Shown: positions 7,010 to 21,607 of the stretch, piece after piece
Position numbering within the stretch: position 1 is the stretch's first letter
Layout: each line of letters starts with the position of its first letter
Source of the DNA: Candidatus Hydrogenedentota bacterium
GTDB taxonomy: Bacteria; Hydrogenedentota; Hydrogenedentia; Hydrogenedentales; SLHB01
Assembly (NCBI GenBank): GCA_029552745.1
Contig: JAKPDK010000120.1
Location: 1 to 64,000 of the forward strand
Direction of reading: 5' to 3'
Length of the DNA stretch: 64,000 bases
Notes under the pieces: generated by a model
What the model saw: the letters and a program-made list of their open reading frames with translations, nothing else
Database searches by the model: none
Told to the model about the DNA's origin: nothing
Translations under genes and position numbers: made by a program

Positions 7010-7690
7010 TTAGGCTTTACGCAGTTTACGCATTAGCATGCCCACGATGCCCAGACCCAACAGCGTGTTCGTTGCCGGTTCCGGTACTACTTGCGGCTGG
7101 CAAGGGATAGCGTACACACTGTCATCACACGGTCCCTGGGTGAATTTTATTGCAGCCTCCGCTGGTGTGAGACCACCCCCCCAGGACAGGCCAGAGAAAA
7201 AGTCCGCTAGTGTAAGCTGGTCAGTACCTACCAGACTTGTCACGTAAAATAAGAAAGTGGCGCTGTCTCCAGAAGACAATCCCCTGTTGCCGCGCCCTAA
7301 GTCCAGCTCATAGTCAAACGTTCCAAATCCGCCCGCGTGGCTGTTGGCGTTCAGGCTGGCATGATAGAAGCCGTCATCATATATAAGGGTCAACAAGGCG
7401 ACATCATTGGATACGTTGATGAAAACCTCACTGATGGTATAACCTGGATCAGTCAGATTATTGACCGTTAATCCAAAGATTCCGAAATCGGGATCATACC
7501 AATATTCGAAATTCGCATGGAAATAGTCTAGCGGGGCATCATCGTCGCTCAGTTCCCCGCTAAAACATATCGAGCCGACTTCTGCGCCTTCCGGGGGCCC
7601 AAGAGGGATAAAAACCGCATTTGCCTGGGAAGCAATGAGTAACGTGCCACACAGGGCAATCACCGCAAACCACCTAAGCTTCATAATCAT
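7010..7690 (-). CDS. PEP-CTERM sorting-domain protein, exported
   Basis: 226 residues. An N-terminal signal peptide ends at SQANA (about residue 25). The C-terminus VVPEPATNTLLGLGIVGM is a PEP-CTERM tripartite tail: the PEP motif, a hydrophobic helix and a basic end (MRKLRKA). Such proteins are processed by exosortase and often associated with extracellular polysaccharide or biofilm matrix in diderms. The middle is acidic, Gly/Asp/Tyr-rich and probably beta-structured, with no enzyme motif seen. GGAG lies eight bases before the ATG. No exosortase gene is in the window. A sigma-54 promoter lies about 45 bases upstream (see 7735-7751), which fits the known link between PEP-CTERM genes and RpoN in other bacteria. 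Confidence 0.85.
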   Translation of the reverse strand: MIMKLRWFAVIALCGTLLIASQANAVFIPLGPPEGAEVGSICFSGELSDDDAPLDYFHANFEYWYDPDFGIFGLTVNNLTDPGYTISEVFINVSNDVALLTLIYDDGFYHASLNANSHAGGFGTFDYELDLGRGNRGLSSGDSATFLFYVTSLVGTDQLTLADFFSGLSWGGGLTPAEAAIKFTQGPCDDSVYAIPCQPQVVPEPATNTLLGLGIVGMLMRKLRKA

Positions 7691-7734
7691 ATTATCGTCT
7701 CCTTTCGTATGAGTTCGACGTCCACCTTAAAGAA

Positions 7735-7751
7735 AGCAGCTTTCGTGCCAA
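7735..7751 (-). promoter_or_regulatory. Sigma-54 promoter of the PEP-CTERM gene
   Basis: Read on the minus strand the site is TTGGCACGAAAGCTGCT. Compared with the RpoN consensus YTGGCACGRNNNTTGCW it matches at all fixed positions but one (C for the first T of TTGC). The invariant GG (7749-7748) and GC (7737-7736) are exactly ten bases apart. The start would fall near 7724, leaving a leader of about 34 bases with the ribosome site. Confidence 0.85.
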
Positions 7752-8234
7752 AAGTCAAAGTTTCCCATCGATAGTCTAGCCGACACAGGTTGTCTAAATG
7801 GCGTTCAAAACGGACTATATTAATTTGAAATGCAACAAATTGTTTAAGTAATTCAAATTAAATAACTTACAAGATATAACTTTTAGTGACATTGCAGAAT
7901 CTGTCGATAGTTTCCGTAACGTAAGTCTAGAAAGTCTAATTGAAATAATTATTCATTTTTGATAAACATAGCGCTTTTAAATGATACAGGTTGTCAAATA
8001 TGATATATATTTATTAAATAATGCACCACTATTGATCTTACCTTGCGTTTCGAAGGTAGGAAACAGGGAATTCTATCGTTGTGGATCTCAAAAACAGGAT
8101 GTCGCAAATTGTCACTTTACGCCTAATACGAATCATCCGTTAATCCGCTCCCGGGAATCGTGGACACGTAAGAGCAAATACGTGTTCTCGCTTTGTATTT
8201 GCTCCATAGTTTTTGTATACTTCTTAGCTTAATT
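7752..8234. other. AT-rich divergent intergenic region with repeat motifs
   Basis: This gap between the PEP-CTERM gene and the PAP2 fusion gene is clearly richer in A+T than its neighbours. It holds two copies of ACAGGTTGTC followed by an AAAT run (7785-7799 and 7986-7999). The first lies in a GACA-N5-TGTC dyad, the second in a near TGATA-N5-TGTCA dyad. A 10-base inverted repeat TTAATTTGAA/TTCAAATTAA lies at 7820-7829 and 7852-7861. These are candidate protein-binding sites, perhaps enhancer sites for a sigma-54 activator. No gene is supported. Confidence 0.45.
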
Positions 8235-10391
8235 ATGAATACGTGGCTTTTCCGCTTAATTAATGATGGGATCAAGAACCCGTTTTTCGACTGGTTGCTA
8301 CCCATTTTTTCGGACAAGGACTACCTGGTCATTCCAGGTATTATGGCGCTTGCTTTTTGGGCCTATGTCGGGGGGAAACGGGCGCGGTTCTTTGTCGTGT
8401 GCCTTTTGATCTCTCTGGCGATTGCCGACATTGGGTCAGAAAAGGTTATCAAGAATATAGTTCGTTTAGATAGACCCTATGCTACCCTTGAAGGGGTTCA
8501 CCTGCACCGGGGGGAAGAATGGCGGGATTACGACCCGGCATTTTATCCATTTGATACGCGTAAGAGCTACTCCTTCCCATCGTCTCACGCGGCGAATATG
8601 GCGGCTGTGGCGGCCGTGCTCGCCTTTCTCCGCTTGGGAACTTTGTGGGTTACTGTGCCCCTTGCTTTACTCGTTGGATTGTCTCGAATTTACACCGGAA
8701 ACCATTACCCACTGGATATACTGGGGGGATACATATGGGGTGGGTTAGTCGGCATGGGGGTAACGGCAAGTTTTCTTGAAGCACGGAGGTTTCTGTTGCC
8801 GGCGGCGTCAAACCAGGAGCCATCTACCCAAGTGCCTCCCGAGCGGCAATGGTTTTATGTTCTGTTGGCGACGTGGCTTATCGGAAACTTTCTATTTCTA
8901 CATCTGAACCTCTTTGATTTGGCGGGTGATGAAGCCCAGTATTGGGACTGGTCAAGACGTCTTGCCCTGGGGTATTACAGCAAGCCTCCTTTAGTAGCTT
9001 ACGTTATCCGAGCCTTGACGAATGCCGGCGGCAACAAGGAATGGGCGATTCGAAGCGGGGCGTTGCTGTTTTCAGCGGCATCATTGGTGGCGATTCATGC
9101 TCTGGCGCTTCGCATGACGCGAAGCGAACGGGCGGCATTTCTGGCGGCAGCTACAGCCGTGGCGATGCCGGCTACCTGGGCAGGTTCGGTACTCATGACC
9201 ATTGACCCGATGCTGGTGTTTTTCTGGGCTGTTGCGGCTTATTTTTTTTACCAGTCGGTCAGGGAGGGACGACTTGGATCTTGGATCCTTACAGGTCTTG
9301 CCATAGGACTCGGTATGCTTGCCAAGTACACCATGGCGCTGATTTTCGTTTCGTTTTTCGTGTATCTCTTGGTGTACGACAGGCGCTGGTTGTTACGAAA
9401 AGAACCTTGGGTTGCTGCGCTATTAGCTTTGCTTTGTCTTTCGGGGGTCTTGTATTGGAATTGGGCAAACGATTGGGTGTCGTTTCGCCATACTGCCCAG
9501 ATTGGGGCCAGCGAAGAATACACGCTCTGGACGCCGGTGCGTAACCTGCTCGAACTCGCGGGGGGACAGATTGGGGTGGTTTCTCCCCTTATTCTAGCAC
9601 TTTTTGTATGGGCAGGTATTCACTGTTTATTGCGTGCACCCCAAAATCCCCACGCGGGATATCTTGCGCTGATTTCGGGTGTTCCGTTGGTGTTTTATGG
9701 TGTGGTAGCGGTAGCGCGCCGTCCTGAAGCGAACTGGCCGGTCGCGGGGTATGTCGGGGCATGCGTAGCCGTGGCGTGGGCTTGGCAACTCACTGAGAAA
9801 CGGCCTCCATGGGAACGGTATTTCCTGACGGCGTCGCTGATCCTAGGGTGTCTTATTGGTGCCTCTGCACGAGCGACAGACCTCTTGTATCTCTTTGGGA
9901 CGGAACCCGCACCCGGGGCACGACAAGATAGACTCTATTTGGGTACATGGGCGATTGATCCGGATGTTGACCCTACGAACCGTCTTCGGGGCGCGAGAGA
10001 ACTGGGTAACGCCCTAGGCAAATATGTGGGCGACAAGAAAACAGGTCCGTTTTTATTTAGCGATCGATACCAGGTCACGGCTTGGATGGCTTTTTATACC
10101 CCCGGACGCCCCAAGACCTATTGCTTACCGTTGCATCGTAGACAAAACCAATATGACCTCTGGGGTGGGTGGAAAGAACTGGCGGGTCGAGACGGCATTT
10201 TTGTTACCGGTGGAGATACCACACGGGCTCAACGTTGGGTGGAGATTCTCTTGAGCAGAGGCCTTTTTGAGCGTGGGGAGGTTTTGGAAACGGTAGAAGT
10301 GTGGCGGGGCAAGACGCTGATCAAGACGTTCACCATCTCTCGTTTGTATCACTATTCAGGCGAGGAATTGAAGCCACTGGAAATATATTAA
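8235..10391 (+). CDS. PAP2 phosphatase fused to an ArnT/PMT-like lipid-linked glycosyltransferase
   Basis: 718 residues from ATG 8235; an in-frame TTG at 8193 would add 14 residues, and neither has a clear ribosome site. Residues about 1-195 form a membrane PAP2 phosphatase with all three signature motifs: K-x6-RP in KNIVRLDRP, FPSSH, and SR-x5-H-x3-D in SRIYTGNHYPLD. From about residue 215 it continues as a polytopic GT-C glycosyltransferase of the ArnT/PMT_2 type, with the acidic loop motif DLAGDEAQYWDW after the first helix and SKPPLVAYV downstream, then many helices. Such enzymes use polyprenyl-phosphate sugars as donors. Coupling a phosphatase that releases or recycles polyprenyl phosphate to a user of that carrier is a sensible fusion. 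The next gene is uppP, which supports a role in undecaprenyl carrier metabolism and envelope glycan or lipid A modification. The acceptor is unknown. Confidence 0.85.
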   Translation: MNTWLFRLINDGIKNPFFDWLLPIFSDKDYLVIPGIMALAFWAYVGGKRARFFVVCLLISLAIADIGSEKVIKNIVRLDRPYATLEGVHLHRGEEWRDYDPAFYPFDTRKSYSFPSSHAANMAAVAAVLAFLRLGTLWVTVPLALLVGLSRIYTGNHYPLDILGGYIWGGLVGMGVTASFLEARRFLLPAASNQEPSTQVPPERQWFYVLLATWLIGNFLFLHLNLFDLAGDEAQYWDWSRRLALGYYSKPPLVAYVIRALTNAGGNKEWAIRSGALLFSAASLVAIHALALRMTRSERAAFLAAATAVAMPATWAGSVLMTIDPMLVFFWAVAAYFFYQSVREGRLGSWILTGLAIGLGMLAKYTMALIFVSFFVYLLVYDRRWLLRKEPWVAALLALLCLSGVLYWNWANDWVSFRHTAQIGASEEYTLWTPVRNLLELAGGQIGVVSPLILALFVWAGIHCLLRAPQNPHAGYLALISGVPLVFYGVVAVARRPEANWPVAGYVGACVAVAWAWQLTEKRPPWERYFLTASLILGCLIGASARATDLLYLFGTEPAPGARQDRLYLGTWAIDPDVDPTNRLRGARELGNALGKYVGDKKTGPFLFSDRYQVTAWMAFYTPGRPKTYCLPLHRRQNQYDLWGGWKELAGRDGIFVTGGDTTRAQRWVEILLSRGLFERGEVLETVEVWRGKTLIKTFTISRLYHYSGEELKPLEIY

Positions 10392-10411
10392 GGAGAGGAA
10401 CAAACACAACC

Positions 10412-11212
10412 ATGTTTTTATTTAAAGCGATTGTCCTCGCCGTTGTCGAAGGGTTGACGGAATTTTTGCCGATTAGCAGCACGGGCCATCTCATCCTTGC
10501 CGAATCGGTCTTATCGCTGAGCGATAAAAAATGCTTTAACGATGCTTACATAGTACTCATTCAGTTGCCCGCCATCTTAGCCGTGGTGGTGTACTTTTGG
10601 AATCGTCTTTGGCCCTTTACCCGCGATACGGAGCAGCGCCGCCTTCGGTTCTCTCTGTGGTTCAAGGTGTGCGTGGCATTCGTGCCTGCCGCGATAGCCG
10701 GGCTCTTGTTTGACGACTACATTGAAAGCAAACTCTTGTCCGAGTTGCCCGTGGCGATAGCCCTCGTCTTCGGCGGCATCGCTTTCATTGTGTTGGAGCG
10801 CCTCCCTTTGTCCCATCGTTTTGCTCACGCAGAAGATATCGGATGGCGCACAGCCCTCGGTATCGGGGCGCTGCAGTGCCTTGCATTATTTCCCGGGGTA
10901 TCGCGCTCGGGTGCCTCCATTTTGGGAGCGATGATTTTGGGTGCGAGCCGTCCTGCGGCAGCGGAGTTTTCCTTTTTCCTTGCTATCCCGACTATGGCAG
11001 GCGCCTGGGCGCTGACGGTGCTCAAATCCGGCTTGACGTTCACCGTGACAGAATGGACGGCGTTGGCAGTCGGTTCTGTCGTGTCGTTTGTTGTGGCGTA
11101 TGCGGTTATTGCATTTCTTATGCGGTTTGTACAACAGCACCGTTTCACGGTCTTCGGCTATTACCGAATCATCTTGGGTGGCTTGGTGTTGGTTGCTCAA
11201 CTCATGGGGTGA
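10412..11212 (+). CDS. uppP: Undecaprenyl-diphosphatase (UppP/BacA)
   Basis: 266 residues from the ATG at 10412, which has AGGAGAGG about 13 bases upstream; the reading frame is open further 5' but that part overlaps the preceding gene. It is an integral membrane enzyme that turns undecaprenyl diphosphate into the monophosphate carrier. Signature motifs: EGLTEFLPISSTGHLIL near the N-terminus with the catalytic Glu pair and Ser, and PGVSRSGASI in the second half. It is the usual length for the family. It lies 20 bases after the PAP2-glycosyltransferase gene, and the two are probably cotranscribed. Confidence 0.95.
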   Translation: MFLFKAIVLAVVEGLTEFLPISSTGHLILAESVLSLSDKKCFNDAYIVLIQLPAILAVVVYFWNRLWPFTRDTEQRRLRFSLWFKVCVAFVPAAIAGLLFDDYIESKLLSELPVAIALVFGGIAFIVLERLPLSHRFAHAEDIGWRTALGIGALQCLALFPGVSRSGASILGAMILGASRPAAAEFSFFLAIPTMAGAWALTVLKSGLTFTVTEWTALAVGSVVSFVVAYAVIAFLMRFVQQHRFTVFGYYRIILGGLVLVAQLMG

Positions 11213-11319
11213 ATCCGGAAAGGTTCTGGGATTGGCGTTCCAGGTGTTCCTCAGCTCATGTTTCTTAATTTAGGCTTGCCAGAGAGTCTCCACGGCACGT
11301 AAGATTTAACCCATGATAC

Positions 11320-13767
11320 ATGGATATTTTCGTAGGCTTTGGAGTGCCCATCTTGACAGGTGAACGACTCATCCAGGTAAATGATCCCCTTCCCCCTGTT
11401 CGAGGGTTGATCCCTCTGCACAACGCAAAGGGCAAACCTTACCCTATCCGCGATATACATCGGTGGATCCGATTCCTTCGGCAGGAGCTCAAAGTCGAAA
11501 AAATCGACCTTGCCGTGCAAGGCAAGATATCATTTGTTGCGCACGCCTTGCTGCATTACTACAGCAAAGGCGACACCCTGTGGATGCCAAATTGCCCCCA
11601 TCACGTTCCGATCGTCAATCTCTCCCTTCGCACGGATTGTCCAGAGCCGCCCTATTGGTTGCAGGGCACAAAATGGCTGAAACTGTTCGATGTCTTTTTA
11701 ACGCCGACTTCGGTTAATAATCCTAACCTAACTGCCTGGCTGGAGTTATGTCGCCGCGAGGAACTTGCTGCCCGTCTGCAGATCCAACCACCCTTCCCAG
11801 AAGGTTTCGACACGGAAGGCTTTTGTGCCAACGCCGTAAACTGCGGCGTAACTTCGGTAAACATTGTGCTGAACGATCCTTTTGTGACGCCAGCGCCGAA
11901 GCATGTTTCAGTACAATCTTATGAGACGACGCTCAGTCAGATTCACGCCCTGGCATATGGCTTCGCAAACCGCGGCGTCGAAGTGAATCTCTACGACATA
12001 CCGCTTTGCCACGTGGCGCCGGATCTGAGGGACTGCGCAGGCGGACGTTCTCGATACTTTCTCGACCACCAGCAATACCACCGCAAAGCCTATCGTCTTG
12101 CGCAAATGTTATATCAGTATCATCCACGCCTCGCGGGTTTAGCCTTGATGTTCTTGAGTATTCGTAACCATTCTTATCGGCCGCCTACAGATGCACACCT
12201 GATCCATTGGTTGATGGTCAATCAGCACAAGTCCATTTACAGTCTGCTGTTGTTGCTCAGCAAGACCGTAAGGCGACGGGGTTGGTTTCCCGGCGAGACG
12301 GAATTGTTGGAGGATCGCGAGCACGCTTATTTGGATGAAGTGGTGATGGAAGCCGAGGCTGCAGAGGAAAAAATGAACGCTGCCTGTAGGAGTTGTGCCT
12401 TGCGCCGGACCTGCGATGGCGAAACCCCTCTGGTCAGACGTTATCTCCCAGGACTCCACGTACTTCCTGAAAAGGCAGAACGCATTCTTTCACCCCGGGC
12501 GAGCTTATGTAGGCAATCAAAGTATTACGACCCGATTGATAACATGAGGCTTCAACAGGAGAGAGAATGGCAAGCCCTTGCTCACGAAGCGGCTGCGGTG
12601 ATGAGTAACAGACTGCCCACACCGCTAAGCATAGAAAAAATCATTATCGATAAGACATTTTACACGAAAATGCCGGGGGCATACCGGTACTACGGCTTCG
12701 AAGATCGTGAACACCTGAGTACATTGGCTTTTTGGGGAGAGATTCCTTTCACGCTTGCTGCAACGTTCGGGGGCGGCATGGCGGAATTGGCTGGGTTTTG
12801 CCTATGGGATTCGATTCGTCTTGTCTGTCCCATGATTGCGCCGTCCCATCAGATTGTTCTTCATGCGAGCGCGGATGGACGTTATGTGTTGTTGCGGGAC
12901 GGACAACCTGTTCGCCCTGCAGAGTTCCGGGGCAAGTATTTTGTCCCACGGCGGATGCCTACCTATGTCCAAATCAAACTCTCCTTGTGGGACATTCAAG
13001 GCGATATCTGCCTGCAAAATCTGCAGGAATGGCGGGGTGAGCAAGACCTGAGGCGAAAGGATAAGGTGAAGTATTCGTTTCTTGTAGTGAGCACCCGGTT
13101 TGCGCGACGGCTACAAGCCGTGCTTCAGGGCATTGCTCACCAACGCGGGATTGACCCCGAAGAAGTGGAAGTTATCGTAGGTTACGTTCCGGGACTGGAT
13201 GCCACGGAAGACGTGTTAAGTTCCATCCGGTTAGCCTTTCCCAATCTACGGGTGCTGCACGCACCCTTCCCGGAGAACGCTGCCCATGCCAAGGGGTTCA
13301 TCATCAACCGTTCTGTCTCGATGGCCTCCGGTGAGTGGGTGATCTTGATTGATTCCGACATTGTGGTTGCTCCGGATATGTGTTCCCAGTTGGCAAAAGT
13401 GCCCGAGTCGGCAATCATTGCCGCCCCCGTGGGACGAAAGATGCTTCCACCGGACATCACCGGTAGGATTCTACTTGGAGAGTTACGCCCTTGGGAAGAT
13501 TGGGATTGTGTCGTGGCGGGTCCTGGGGAAAACCGCTTCGGTGAAAAACGGGAGGGCGGGGAGATCCCCGTGGGCTTTTGTCAATGCGTTCGCAAGTCCT
13601 GTTTTCAAGAGATTCGTTATAATGAATACGAACATTTTGAGGGGGCGGATTGGGAATTTGCCGCAGCCACCGTCGAAAAACATGGGCGCTGTGTGTGGTT
13701 AGAATCGCCCGTGTTACACTTGGATCATGGAGGAAGCCAGTGGTTCGGAACGCGCACACATCGATGA
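11320..13767 (+). CDS. Degenerate radical SAM/SPASM-like domain fused to a GT-A glycosyltransferase
   Basis: 815 residues. The N-terminal 390 residues resemble the radical SAM protein at 33041: GVEVNLYDIPLC here matches GIEANVRYLPLC there, and CRSCALRRTCDG matches CQKCAARDICDG, the C-terminal Cys cluster. Yet the CxxxCxxC cluster that binds the SAM iron-sulfur centre is missing (the first Cys is near residue 92), and the GGEP strand reads VQGKI, so radical chemistry is unlikely. The last 250 residues are a GT-A glycosyltransferase (family 2-like): VSTRFARRLQAVLQGI, the metal-binding DSD in WVILIDSDIVVAP, and an acceptor-side segment EYEHFEGADWEFAA. The central 200 residues are not recognised. 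Two glycosyltransferase-like genes follow closely, so a glycan assembly role is likely. The start lacks a clear ribosome site. Confidence 0.7.
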   Translation: MDIFVGFGVPILTGERLIQVNDPLPPVRGLIPLHNAKGKPYPIRDIHRWIRFLRQELKVEKIDLAVQGKISFVAHALLHYYSKGDTLWMPNCPHHVPIVNLSLRTDCPEPPYWLQGTKWLKLFDVFLTPTSVNNPNLTAWLELCRREELAARLQIQPPFPEGFDTEGFCANAVNCGVTSVNIVLNDPFVTPAPKHVSVQSYETTLSQIHALAYGFANRGVEVNLYDIPLCHVAPDLRDCAGGRSRYFLDHQQYHRKAYRLAQMLYQYHPRLAGLALMFLSIRNHSYRPPTDAHLIHWLMVNQHKSIYSLLLLLSKTVRRRGWFPGETELLEDREHAYLDEVVMEAEAAEEKMNAACRSCALRRTCDGETPLVRRYLPGLHVLPEKAERILSPRASLCRQSKYYDPIDNMRLQQEREWQALAHEAAAVMSNRLPTPLSIEKIIIDKTFYTKMPGAYRYYGFEDREHLSTLAFWGEIPFTLAATFGGGMAELAGFCLWDSIRLVCPMIAPSHQIVLHASADGRYVLLRDGQPVRPAEFRGKYFVPRRMPTYVQIKLSLWDIQGDICLQNLQEWRGEQDLRRKDKVKYSFLVVSTRFARRLQAVLQGIAHQRGIDPEEVEVIVGYVPGLDATEDVLSSIRLAFPNLRVLHAPFPENAAHAKGFIINRSVSMASGEWVILIDSDIVVAPDMCSQLAKVPESAIIAAPVGRKMLPPDITGRILLGELRPWEDWDCVVAGPGENRFGEKREGGEIPVGFCQCVRKSCFQEIRYNEYEHFEGADWEFAAATVEKHGRCVWLESPVLHLDHGGSQWFGTRTHR

Positions 13768-17698: not shown

Positions 17699-20600
17699 CT
17701 AGTTTGAATGGCGAGAAGGCCGATCGCTGTCCCTGCGGTAATAGAGGGCCTCGCGGTCGGAAAGCAACCCGCGACGAATCATTCGATGGAGCCGCTCCAT
17801 GTCAACATTTCGCGGTTTTCCCGCCACAGCCGAACGGGGTTGGGACACGATAGGAGCGGACTTTTCCTTCCATAACGAGGTTTCCGCCAGAGAGTAGAAA
17901 CCCATGGAAAGCGCCAGTGTCGCACAGGTTGCTATAAGAACCCCATATAGCCATGGCGACTTTTCGGGGGGCTGGACTGTGACATCAGGGGCGGAAGGCA
18001 TACGACATCGATCACAGCAAATGCAATCCAATTCCGCGGTAGAGCGTACACCGAGATCGCAACGTATCGGAGCCGTGGTTGGCAAAAAGCGTCTCATCAA
18101 ACGAACACCGCCTAATAACGCCAGAAATGCCCCCGAAGGACAAAGATTGCGACACCAAAACCTCGGGAAAAACAGTGCAAATACGAGCGCTGTGGCTCCC
18201 AATATGATTGTGAAACGGCTGGGATGAGCGGTGAACCATGTAGTCAAGGGGTCGGAGTTAAACACGGATGGGTTGCGCGTCAGCGCGAACAAAAGAACCA
18301 AAAAGAATAGCAGCCCATACTTGACGTGCCGTGCGTAACGCCACGTCATTTTGTTCAAAGATACCGAAAACTTTTTGGGAATTAGATCGCCTAGCAGTTC
18401 CTGGAACGCACCGAAGGGACAGAGGTAACCGCAATACAGGTTCCCGAAAACGATAACAAGAACCGGCACGCCTACGGTAAGAAGAAAAGCAGGCCGAAAC
18501 GATGGGAAAAGCGGCTTGAGACCGACGAACGTGGCTACGTGTTGTGCTGCGTATTGCATGTTGAAGCGATATCCCAACACCACGACAATGCCTAGCAATA
18601 AAAGCCGTCGCACTGTACGGTTAGGATATGTTCTCATTACGGCAAGCGCCGCGAGGAATGCCAGAAACAGCGCCGATGCCCAATCCCACTGGGAGATGTT
18701 CCCTTCGTAAGAATCTTGTTTCAAAGGTGCTTCAAGCGCGATACGGGCAAATGTAGGCGCGGCTTTTCGCAAGGCATCCAGGACGGCAGCCGATGTGAGC
18801 GTGGCTCCACTGCAGCCATCCACATTAAGTTCCGAAGGGGCGCGTAGCAAATTTTTCTCATAAAGTTTTGGAAGCCACGTTCGCACCATTTCCAGGTATG
18901 CTGGCGTCTCGTCATTTTGGAGGAATTCCACGCCTTGTAACACACCGTCCTTTCCCATAACCACGGCGATGTTTACGGGTCCGGCATAGCCGGCCAACGC
19001 ATTTGGCGCCAAATCACGGGCTGCAAAGACGAATGTTTGCTTTTCGGGCGCTTCGAGATACACGAACGACCTACCGTCCGACAACATGGCTGACCGTTGC
19101 TGCAGTTGGGCTTCGGGCAGAAACTTCCGGGCTATTTCTTGGAGCTGTTGTATCTCATCCGTACGGTTGTAATACGAAAACAAATCCGAGGCGATGAGTA
19201 ATAGGACTGCGAAACCTGTGGCAACATAGCCAATGCGCCGTACCCAAAGGTCATAGCGGTCTGTGGGAACAACCGGCAGGCCACGACCCGATGCGAGGAA
19301 AACGAGAGCCACCCATTCGACCAGGAATAAGCTCACCGCGAGGAGGGTCTGCGCCATTCCAAGAAAAGGTAGTAATATCAACCCCGTGAAGGCAGCCCCG
19401 AACGCGCCACCCATGTGATCCAAAAACTCCAGCCATCTGCTGCTAGCTTCTACCTTGTGTCCAAGCCGATCAAAAAGATAGGCGCTCGCTGGGAAAAAGG
19501 TTCCATTCACGACACCGGCGCCCAGTACGATGATGCGCCAGAACGTTTTCGAGAGATTCCGCGGCAACACCGGCGCCGAGAGTGCGAACGCAATGTATAC
19601 GAGTAGGACCCCAAACAGGAAAAACAAAATCCTGTTGGGGTGTCGAGAAACCACCGATTTTGTTAGGCTGCCTCCTAAAAAAATACCCAGCATGAATACA
19701 GCGGTAAGCAGCCCCACATCCAAGTAAAGTGAACCAAATTGATACTGATAGGCGAAAAGCAGGGTGAGGTTGAAAGACATGCTGGCAACGCCTGTTCCGA
19801 ATACAAGAATTGCGGCATCAAACATATTGGGCTTTGCGGCGTCCGCGCGGTAATGTCGCCAGATATAGGTCAGACGGAAACTTCCATACAGTAGCAAGAG
19901 AGCAAAGCAAAGAACGGGCACCGTGGCAAAAACCGCCGGAAACACCTCCGCCAAAGCCAAATCCGAGTACAAATGCAGGGTAGCGGAAAGGCTGTACACA
20001 AGCGATTTGGGAGCACCGTCTGTATTGAGCAATATCGTTTCGTTGCCTTGCGTCATCAAAGTCTCGTAGGCTTCGCGTTGAAAGGCAATGCGGTCGACAG
20101 GATACAAAGCAGAGAGACCCGTTGTGGGATAGATTTCTGACGCATCAGGGATGGAGGCAAAAAGCGAGCACAATTCGTCGGGGTTCTCTGACAATGGGGC
20201 GTCTGACGCCAAAAACCAACTCTCTTCGCCCGGTTTCAGTGCGATGTGCGCAAAGGAAGTGCGTAACGTTTGCAATATGGAAGCGCCCAAGTACGCCAGT
20301 TCGCTGCTCATGTAATTCACAGGACCGCGGAAACGTACGGATATGACTCCTCCTTCCGAAAGATGGCGTTTCAGGGCAGCGAAAAATTCACGTGTGACAT
20401 AACGATTGGTAACTAATGAAGAAAGATCTCCCACGGATAGAAGAATAAGGTCAAATTTCGGTTGGTCAGCATGTGAATGACTGAAATAGACGCGGGGCTC
20501 TTCCGAAGCAATCCCGAATCGCTCCTTGTCTGTCGGGAACATGTCAGGCGCTATCTGCAACAATCGTTTTGGATACGCGGCATCGGGACAAAACCAGACC

Positions 20601-21607
20601 ACCGTTTCAGTCGTCGGCGCCTCTAAGAACCGACTGCAAATCGCTAAAGCGGATTGGCCTACAACCGCTATACGGCGGCTCTTGGGACGTTGCGCCAGAT
20701 GCATAGCAACGACTTGGGAAGCATGTTCTTTTTCAGGCAAGGTCTCGCAGACGCCGCCCCAAGACAACACGACAAGTTGATCCCGGTTCCACCCATAAAG
20801 ATAGAGGGTTTGAGGGGTTGTAAAATGCCCACCAAATTGACCTGTGGGAATCATACGCCGCCACAGAGATCCTTGGTTATAAGAACTCCATGCGGTGCCC
20901 GTTCCGGCGGCGGTTGCCCCTATCAAACCCAACGCCGTCAAACCAAGGATCATGTCTTGCATGTGACGTGAACGGCGCTCGTCGGTCATATGAGTAAGCC
21001 CTACCAACACGGCAAAAAGGCACGCACCGATCAGGATCAAAGTTTCCGATGTGTTACCGTAGGCAAGAAACAAAGTCGCTGAAACGCCGCCGATAAATGC
21101 GCCCAACGTTTCCAGGACATAGACGTATGCCACGGGTAGTGGGCGGTCTCTCTCGCTCGCCCATCGGCACGTTTTGACGAACAAATAGCCCGTCGTGAAC
21201 GAAAAGGGCGCTGTGAGCGCAAGCGTCGTTACAATCATTCGCCCTAGAGGGAAAAGTTCGAATGTTTCGACACGTGCAAGAGGCCGTGCACAGTGCATGA
21301 GCTGAAATTGGAGAGCAAGAATCGGAATGTAGAACAGACAGACAACCGGGAGCGACGGACCGACTTTATTCTCGCCTTTCCAGGAAATGCGGTTAGGCGT
21401 TGTGGCGCCGATACCCACCCAGAATAACCAGCCCGCAAAGAAACAAGCGGTGGAGAATTCGTTTCCTTCAACAACGGTCAAAAACTCGCGGAATATAACC
21501 GTCTGAGCAATCGTGGAGAACAAACCAAGGGCTATCGGCACGCCTGACAAGGCTATTTGTCGATAGAATGTCTTTGGTTGAAGGGCTGCTGCCTCTTGTC
21601 GTTCCAT
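17699..21607 (-). CDS. Giant membrane fusion: spermidine-synthase-like, FMN-binding and NosR/NapH-like iron-sulfur domains
   Basis: 1302 residues with about 20 or more membrane helices. Residues 15-235: seven or so helices of the membrane spermidine-synthase-like type. Residues 260-510: soluble Rossmann domain like aminopropyltransferases (FDLILLSVGDLSSLVTNRYV, then LSEGGVISVRF), but the usual GGGDG loop reads VVGQSALA, so catalysis is doubtful. Residues 550-810: second helix block. Residues 865-960: FMN-binding domain with the covalent-FMN motif DGCSGATLTS (Ser933-Gly-Ala-Thr936). Residues 975-1240: NosR/NapH-type domain with CGYLCPFGA (Cys1059, 1063) and CRNLCPSGA (Cys1152, 1156), and a third cluster CICCDRC (1195-1201). 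Known relatives of the last two modules move electrons across or along the membrane (RnfG/NqrC, NosR, NapH). The gene stands alone, so its partner is unknown. The combination is unusual. Confidence 0.82.
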   Translation of the reverse strand: MERQEAAALQPKTFYRQIALSGVPIALGLFSTIAQTVIFREFLTVVEGNEFSTACFFAGWLFWVGIGATTPNRISWKGENKVGPSLPVVCLFYIPILALQFQLMHCARPLARVETFELFPLGRMIVTTLALTAPFSFTTGYLFVKTCRWASERDRPLPVAYVYVLETLGAFIGGVSATLFLAYGNTSETLILIGACLFAVLVGLTHMTDERRSRHMQDMILGLTALGLIGATAAGTGTAWSSYNQGSLWRRMIPTGQFGGHFTTPQTLYLYGWNRDQLVVLSWGGVCETLPEKEHASQVVAMHLAQRPKSRRIAVVGQSALAICSRFLEAPTTETVVWFCPDAAYPKRLLQIAPDMFPTDKERFGIASEEPRVYFSHSHADQPKFDLILLSVGDLSSLVTNRYVTREFFAALKRHLSEGGVISVRFRGPVNYMSSELAYLGASILQTLRTSFAHIALKPGEESWFLASDAPLSENPDELCSLFASIPDASEIYPTTGLSALYPVDRIAFQREAYETLMTQGNETILLNTDGAPKSLVYSLSATLHLYSDLALAEVFPAVFATVPVLCFALLLLYGSFRLTYIWRHYRADAAKPNMFDAAILVFGTGVASMSFNLTLLFAYQYQFGSLYLDVGLLTAVFMLGIFLGGSLTKSVVSRHPNRILFFLFGVLLVYIAFALSAPVLPRNLSKTFWRIIVLGAGVVNGTFFPASAYLFDRLGHKVEASSRWLEFLDHMGGAFGAAFTGLILLPFLGMAQTLLAVSLFLVEWVALVFLASGRGLPVVPTDRYDLWVRRIGYVATGFAVLLLIASDLFSYYNRTDEIQQLQEIARKFLPEAQLQQRSAMLSDGRSFVYLEAPEKQTFVFAARDLAPNALAGYAGPVNIAVVMGKDGVLQGVEFLQNDETPAYLEMVRTWLPKLYEKNLLRAPSELNVDGCSGATLTSAAVLDALRKAAPTFARIALEAPLKQDSYEGNISQWDWASALFLAFLAALAVMRTYPNRTVRRLLLLGIVVVLGYRFNMQYAAQHVATFVGLKPLFPSFRPAFLLTVGVPVLVIVFGNLYCGYLCPFGAFQELLGDLIPKKFSVSLNKMTWRYARHVKYGLLFFLVLLFALTRNPSVFNSDPLTTWFTAHPSRFTIILGATALVFALFFPRFWCRNLCPSGAFLALLGGVRLMRRFLPTTAPIRCDLGVRSTAELDCICCDRCRMPSAPDVTVQPPEKSPWLYGVLIATCATLALSMGFYSLAETSLWKEKSAPIVSQPRSAVAGKPRNVDMERLHRMIRRGLLSDREALYYRRDSDRPSRHSN

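Follow-up and report, generated by a model that had tools for sequence, protein, structure and literature searches.

The stretch of DNA analysed here (the window: 64,000 nucleotides, positions 1 to 64,000 of contig JAKPDK010000120.1) belongs to a metagenome-assembled genome of Candidatus Hydrogenedentota in 188 contigs, and encodes on its forward strand (8235..10391) a 718-residue protein in which a PAP2 lipid phosphatase and a glycosyltransferase of the C fold class (GT-C) are joined in one chain. We propose, with moderate confidence, that this fusion may be a one-chain lipid phosphate-to-sugar swap enzyme, most likely active on lipid A. On the outer side of the inner membrane, the PAP2 half at the N-terminus would strip phosphate from this envelope glycolipid, and the C-terminal GT-C half would attach, most likely at the freed hydroxyl, the sugar of a polyprenyl-phosphate-sugar donor, itself produced by a glycosyltransferase family 2 (GT2) enzyme of the ArnC/RgtE-like kind, with release of undecaprenyl phosphate (Und-P). 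In this way the enzyme would combine the LpxE/LpxF and RgtF/RgtD steps, for which rhizobia have separate genes. The proposal is built on the linkage of PAP2 genes to related transferases, the LpxF-like character of many of these neighbours, the occurrence of GT2 genes in a row with them, the LpxE fold of the fused domain, the presence of LpxC, the fusion being the sole PAP2 protein of its genome, and a further fusion elsewhere. Both domains with their motifs, their conservation, the gene linkage in relatives and the predicted folds are directly supported, while we infer lipid A as the substrate, the replacement of phosphate by sugar, the order of the steps, the donor and the identity of the sugar.

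Two complete domains in one chain

The reading frame of the fusion is uninterrupted from ATG to TAA. Its PAP2 domain (residues 54-181, 8394..8777) matched Pfam PF01569 with 65.6 bits, for a cut-off of 27.2, and the corresponding fold match covers residues 1-179. The tripartite motif described for PAP2 lipid phosphatases, KX6RP - PSGH - SRX5HX3D (PMC6581854), is complete in this protein (K73-x6-R80-P81, P115-S-S-H118 and S150-R151-x5-H157-x3-D161), with PSSH standing for PSGH; together with the Pfam score, this places it in the PAP2 superfamily, and a degenerate domain is ruled out. In line with this, K73, R80, P81, P115, S116, H118, S150, R151 and H157 were invariant in eight aligned fusions, and D161 was replaced by glutamine in a single one (G005, locus L004). 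The final aspartate has also been reported missing from Helicobacter pylori LpxE (PMC6581854). The possibility of mutated PAP2 motifs in homologues, raised in the initial annotation, thus comes down to this one residue in one fusion of eight.

A variable linker (about residues 182-197, 8778..8825), recognised by poorly conserved alignment columns and reduced model confidence, leads to the GT-C half (about residues 198-718, 8826..10388). This half matched PMT_2 (PF13231) at residues 249-408, with 108 bits for a cut-off of 26.1 and over profile positions 1-160 of 160, as well as PMT (PF02366, 47.9 bits). An acidic motif in the first loop is expected in GT-C transferases of the ArnT/PMT kind. Indeed, D232/E233 and D324 were invariant across the eight aligned fusions, and the fold, the PMT_2 domain and the invariant D232/E233 together identify a polyprenyl-phosphate-sugar transferase of this kind. 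The domain search therefore bears out the initial annotation, which had seen a complete PAP2 phosphatase and an ArnT/PMT-like transferase in one chain.

The predicted model of the whole fusion had a predicted local distance difference test score (pLDDT) of 90.3 and a predicted template modelling score of 0.84, with residues 31-46 under pLDDT 50 and lower pLDDT values, 77 and 62, in the linker region (residues 181-200). Among solved structures, the PAP2 half was closest to Aquifex LpxE (6ebu; Z 17.6, 1.9 Å over 157 residues, 27% identity), followed by Bacillus subtilis YodM (Z 14.5, 2.9 Å over 164 residues), while the best fold of the GT-C half was that of ArnT (5f15/5ezm; Z 24.6 over 434/429 residues, 16% identity). 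A fold shared with LpxE does not in itself imply a shared function.

Conservation within Hydrogenedentota

An assembly artefact, which the initial annotation had envisaged, is ruled out, since the complete fusion recurs in 8 of 68 genomes of the phylum (G000, G003, G005, G013, G014, G017, G020 and G038, the window genome included), the seven further proteins being 48-54% identical to that of the window. The halves found on two contig ends in G043, with the junction at the same residue, are probably one fusion gene split by assembly, and only residues 1-39 were matched in G011. The fusion was the sole PAP2 match in all seven complete-fusion genomes of the window's family, six of which also have BacA; G038 has four PAP2 matches (one below cut-off) and G043 two. 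LpxC was detected in the window's own genome, and a test of 22 further genomes found it in all 22, so that lipid A is likely made.

Linkage of PAP2 genes to unfused relatives of the transferase

Genes for PAP2 proteins recur beside transferases related to the GT-C half. In alphaproteobacterial regions, PAP2 lay within 4.5 kb in 31 of 60 (the first 60 of 74 rows; 30 of 59 without G074, which was known beforehand), within 150 bp in 29 and on the same strand in 23, for an expected linkage of about 0.6% per region (30 of these genomes, 115.7 Mb in all, gave 62 PAP2 matches). PAP2 was near the transferase in 25 of 27 planctomycete-type loci, a set that includes two loci from one isolate and some records labelled Bacillota, bacterium or uncultured, and that was obtained with exact peptide patterns and is not a census. 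The same held for 18 of 21 Burkholderiaceae loci, at a distance of about 2.4 kb. A separate PAP2 was near in 9 of 20 gammaproteobacterial regions, plus one fused; this set combines the first 18 of 60 rows with G1098 and G1105, chosen for their long frames, without which the counts are 7 of 18 separate and one fused. Of the planctomycetotal genome matches (20 of 31 rows), the first ten regions after G068 all had PAP2 near and the next ten had none; G076 and G078, among the ten remaining rows, are the genomes of loci L052 and L057, both with PAP2 near, which indicates that linkage is not simply lost with growing distance. At the gammaproteobacterial loci L267 and L268, PAP2 was found 2-2.5 kb from the transferase. 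The labels alphaproteobacteria, gammaproteobacteria and Planctomycetota are inferred from the named loci L048, L066 and L037, on which the surveys were centred. The PAP2 profile was seeded partly by the neighbours at L037, L044, L046, L048, L052, L060, L066 and L129, which count partly by construction; the PAP2 motifs were seen independently of that profile at L037, L044, L046, L048, L052, L060 and L066.

The nature of these neighbours is in line with a role on lipid A. LpxF was the best NCBIfam model for 14 of 25 unfused PAP2 neighbours that we selected for scanning (66-147 bits; cut-off 400), while in the remaining 11 the PAP2 portion fitted SepP (10) or PhoC (1) best, far below the cut-offs. 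At L048 and L194, a SepP-type PAP2 is followed by the transferase and then by an LpxF-like PAP2, and double-PAP2 proteins stand beside the transferase at L172:5993-7408 (opposite strand; an LpxF-like and a SepP-type half) and L184:1558-3030. Transferase, PAP2 and ArnC-like GT2 occur in a row at L037, L038, L043, L044 and L047, and also at L271; the best model of the L037 GT2 was ArnC (152 bits, for a cut-off of 529). Directly after the transferase gene of Phycisphaerales UBA2421, a 504-residue protein (L042:7493-9004) joins a PAP2 and an ArnC-like GT2, another kind of fusion drawn from this set. The genes for GT2, PAP2, another GT-C (PMT_2, PMT) and the fusion follow one another in G038, all on the same strand and never more than 33 bp apart. 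The window's own genome carries, on another contig, a GT2 - LAB_N - PMT_2 set (L139:4224-7639), which could possibly supply the donor (and a flippase) for this or another transferase.

A further fusion and the origin of the architecture

In G985, and in no other of the 369 genomes surveyed in the class of G080, PAP2 and PMT_2 also occur in one chain of 683 residues (L253:4845-6893; match covering residues 3-542), with glutamine for the last motif aspartate and an altered PSGH motif, so that the fusion is no speciality of Hydrogenedentota. The G985 transferase groups with that of G1098 (support 100/100), where PAP2, GT2 and GT-C each have their own frame on the same strand, and stands apart from the Hydrogenedentota fusions; for the transferase side, the most plausible reading of the tree is that G985 represents a second fusion event. 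The fused PAP2 domains formed one clade in the first PAP2 tree. When the gammaproteobacterial rows were added, the fused G985 and separate G1098 domains fell among those of Hydrogenedentota on a long branch, and the PAP2 side alone hence does not prove two fusions.

Surveys of 385 genomes in the class of G074 (E up to 1e-30) and of 392 genomes in the phylum of G068 (E up to 1e-35) gave no match spanning both halves without a stop, an absence that is weak, as two or three candidates were scored per genome. A phage origin was rejected, no phage match to the fusion being found. A plasmid origin was likewise rejected: the 22 matching plasmid records were all from Rhizobium, none matched more than 80% of the query, and the best covered the GT half. 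Two plasmid loci were inspected: in L239 a PAP2 gene precedes the transferase by about 0.8 kb, and in L240 none is annotated. No description of such a PAP2-GT-C fusion was found among the papers listed in searches of the open-licence PubMed Central literature; the enzyme types are known, and what appears to be new is their union in one chain.

Weighing of the alternatives

Several observations weigh against a phosphate-to-sugar swap on lipid A. In NCBIfam, the LpxE model (NF007159) gave 18.0, 18.3 and 28.4 bits on three fused domains for a cut-off of 177, and the LpxF model (NF045633, cut-off 400 bits) was unlisted for these domains. The nearest undecaprenyl-diphosphatase models scored higher (SepP 51 bits, YbjG 45 bits on the window's domain), though far below their curated cut-offs of 250 and 229 bits, so that the fused PAP2 ranks as an equivalog of neither LpxE/LpxF nor YbjG/SepP; nor does the fusion rank as an ArnT equivalog (NF009784, 34.2 bits for a cut-off of 567). 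A profile search from the fused PAP2 halves recovered Aquifex LpxE over almost its full length with 51 bits, but YodM with 54.6 bits (profile positions 95-176). Moreover, in PAP2 trees the fused domains belong neither to the LpxF-like clade nor to the second large clade of GT-linked PAP2 proteins. Regions with no PAP2 nearby, whether separate or fused, numbered 29 of 60 for alphaproteobacteria, 10 of 20 for Planctomycetota and 10 of 20 for gammaproteobacteria, and none of five unfused Hydrogenedentota transferases had one near; such sets show that PAP2 linkage is no general property of PMT_2 genes. An ArnC-kind GT2 was absent near the fusion from the window and the fetched regions, G038 excepted, and LpxC, found in every genome tested, does not discriminate between readings. 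A literature search on the phylum and lipopolysaccharide listed no paper on its lipid A structure. Finally, G007 has a transferase without PAP2. Its frame retains MNIPLF ahead of the transferase, resembling the N-terminus of the fusions (MNIALF in G038), which suggests that the PAP2 part was lost in frame. One tree puts this transferase within the fusion clade and a second one at the base of that clade, which also takes in the unfused transferase of G032 (L124) on a long branch.

The alternative that survives best, although we consider it somewhat unlikely, is that the PAP2 half is an undecaprenyl-diphosphate (Und-PP) phosphatase feeding the Und-P pool from which the GT donor is made, the fusion and the neighbouring uppP forming a carrier-recycling unit. 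This comes close to the initial annotation, which had supposed that release of carrier phosphate is coupled to its use. In its favour are the SepP and YbjG scores, the job of this kind that PAP2 enzymes are described as doing in E. coli (PMC12826051), and the position of uppP, at most 2.6 kb from the fusion in three of the six genomes that can be judged (immediately downstream in the window genome, G000; next to it in convergent orientation in G005; some 2.5 kb downstream in G003), a proximity that also counts against the swap. Besides, no BacA match was found in the fusion genome G014, which is 84% complete. On the other hand, the GT reaction would itself yield Und-P and not Und-PP, according to the description available for such transferases (PMC12826051), which leaves no pyrophosphate for the PAP2 half to recycle. 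BacA is already present in 61 of 68 genomes of the phylum, including 7 of the 8 with complete fusions; the regions fetched for the fusions of G014, G017 and G038 do not contain uppP (in G013 and G020 the contigs end just past the fusion and cannot be judged); and LpxF-like proteins occur among the PAP2 neighbours of unfused relatives. Furthermore, LpxE enzymes are described as hydrolysing Und-PP as well (PMC6581854), so that SepP/YbjG-like scores remain compatible with the fused PAP2 acting on lipid A. The supposed coupling is only partly supported.

Another acceptor for the transferase, a different envelope lipid or glycan, or two halves acting on unrelated substrates and joined for co-expression, appears unlikely. 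PMT_2 transferases act on many acceptors, G007 carries the GT alone, and the window adjoins PEP-CTERM and other glycosyltransferase genes; PAP2 enzymes may also be promiscuous (PMC6581854). By contrast, the recurrent LpxF-like linkage and the G985 fusion, in another class, favour one shared substrate. An LpxT-like function, in which the PAP2 half would move the Und-PP phosphate onto lipid A, or regulate the transferase, with the GT half decorating that phosphate as ArnT does, is very improbable: LpxT is indeed a PAP2 protein with Und-PP as phosphate donor (PMC2229476), it co-purifies with ArnT in Pseudomonas aeruginosa (PMC13142001), and ArnT is the best fold of the GT half, but none of the NCBIfam models listed for the PAP2 half was that of LpxT (whether the library holds such a model was not checked) and many PAP2 neighbours in relatives best fit a phosphatase model.

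The swap on lipid A thus remains our preferred reading. A wider version of it, rather doubtful at this stage, would have one polypeptide perform the complete exchange, handing the dephosphorylated lipid on from its PAP2 to its GT-C active site, with a PAP2 half that, like Aquifex LpxE, would also make Und-P; removal of surface charge and regeneration of the carrier would then be linked in an enzyme type that had arisen more than once.

Genomic surroundings of the fusion

As the initial annotation had placed it, the fusion lies directly upstream of uppP/bacA (10412..11212, forward strand), which encodes an undecaprenyl-diphosphate phosphatase of 266 residues (270 bits; also above several NCBIfam cut-offs) and is the sole BacA match of its genome. 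The uppP ATG is 20 bp past the fusion stop, which AAGGAGAGGA overlaps. With this spacing on the same strand, co-transcription is likelier than separate regulation, and the two genes probably share an operon, as far as the sequence can tell.

The A+T-rich upstream region (7691..8234), seen initially as a sign of separate regulation, is real, with 34% G+C at 7750-8249 for roughly 50-55% around. It lies, however, between divergent genes, and the promoter-like sites counted in 7600-11400 (three, two of them inside the gap) are not above the 4.0 (sd 1.6) expected from shuffles, so that they lend separate regulation no support; the proximity of uppP would also speak against it. The divergent gene (7010-7690, reverse strand) encodes a PEP-CTERM motif protein. 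Further downstream, an 815-residue protein (11320-13767) has a glycosyltransferase family 2 domain at residues 585-693 only, a cysteine-rich middle and otherwise no Pfam match, and a 1302-residue membrane protein (17699-21607) carries FMN-binding and Fer4_5 4Fe-4S domains. The same FMN-binding/Fer4_5 domains were found in G038 in a protein (L129:4432-7536) whose end is separated from the fusion by about 230 bp.

Implications and comparison with known systems

If the swap on lipid A is correct, the prediction would follow that members of a phylum whose envelope biochemistry is little known have lipid A bearing a sugar in place of phosphate, like the lipid A already described in the literature from Caulobacter, Aquifex and some rhizobia. 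The fusion would then offer a single-gene tool to produce this form of lipid A in laboratory strains, and the linkage of PAP2 and GT-C genes, at times with GT2, would make it possible to predict altered lipid A from the genomes of Planctomycetota, Alpha- and Gammaproteobacteria.

ArnT adds 4-amino-4-deoxy-L-arabinose to phosphate and does not replace it. The ArnT of Cupriavidus metallidurans (5ezm/5f15) shares the GT-C fold with the fusion but has no PAP2 domain. Conversely, Aquifex aeolicus LpxE (6ebu) shares the PAP2 fold but is a stand-alone chain (165 residues in the structure) with no transferase domain; in Aquifex pyrophilus, both phosphates of lipid A are described as replaced by galacturonic acid (GalA; PMC6581854). 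YbjG and SepP resemble the fused PAP2 at the level of family models, but the latter is joined to a GT-C, and BacA/UppP is here the product of the next gene. In P. aeruginosa, a PAP2 protein, LpxT, interacts with the GT-C lipid A transferase ArnT (PMC13142001), yet this is a complex of two proteins in which LpxT is a phosphotransferase, whereas the present enzyme is a single chain.

The nearest parallel in gene arrangement is found in Mesorhizobium loti, where rgtE, rgtF and lpxE are reported to be clustered (PMC5644692) and to encode the polyprenyl-phosphate-GalA synthase RgtE, the alpha-(1,1)-GalA transferase RgtF and the lipid A 1-phosphatase LpxE, the phosphatase being required before the transferase acts (PMC5644692, PMC7795004). 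LpxF and RgtD are described as doing the corresponding 4' job in Rhizobium leguminosarum (PMC7663294, PMC5644692, PMC7795004). Several loci of the relatives analysed here likewise bring together a PAP2, a predicted polyprenyl-phosphate-sugar transferase and a putative GT2 donor synthase, a likeness to RgtF/RgtD that lies in gene arrangement and not in direct sequence comparison. The genes are separate in M. loti, whereas in the window PAP2 and GT-C form one chain, with no GT2 beside it.

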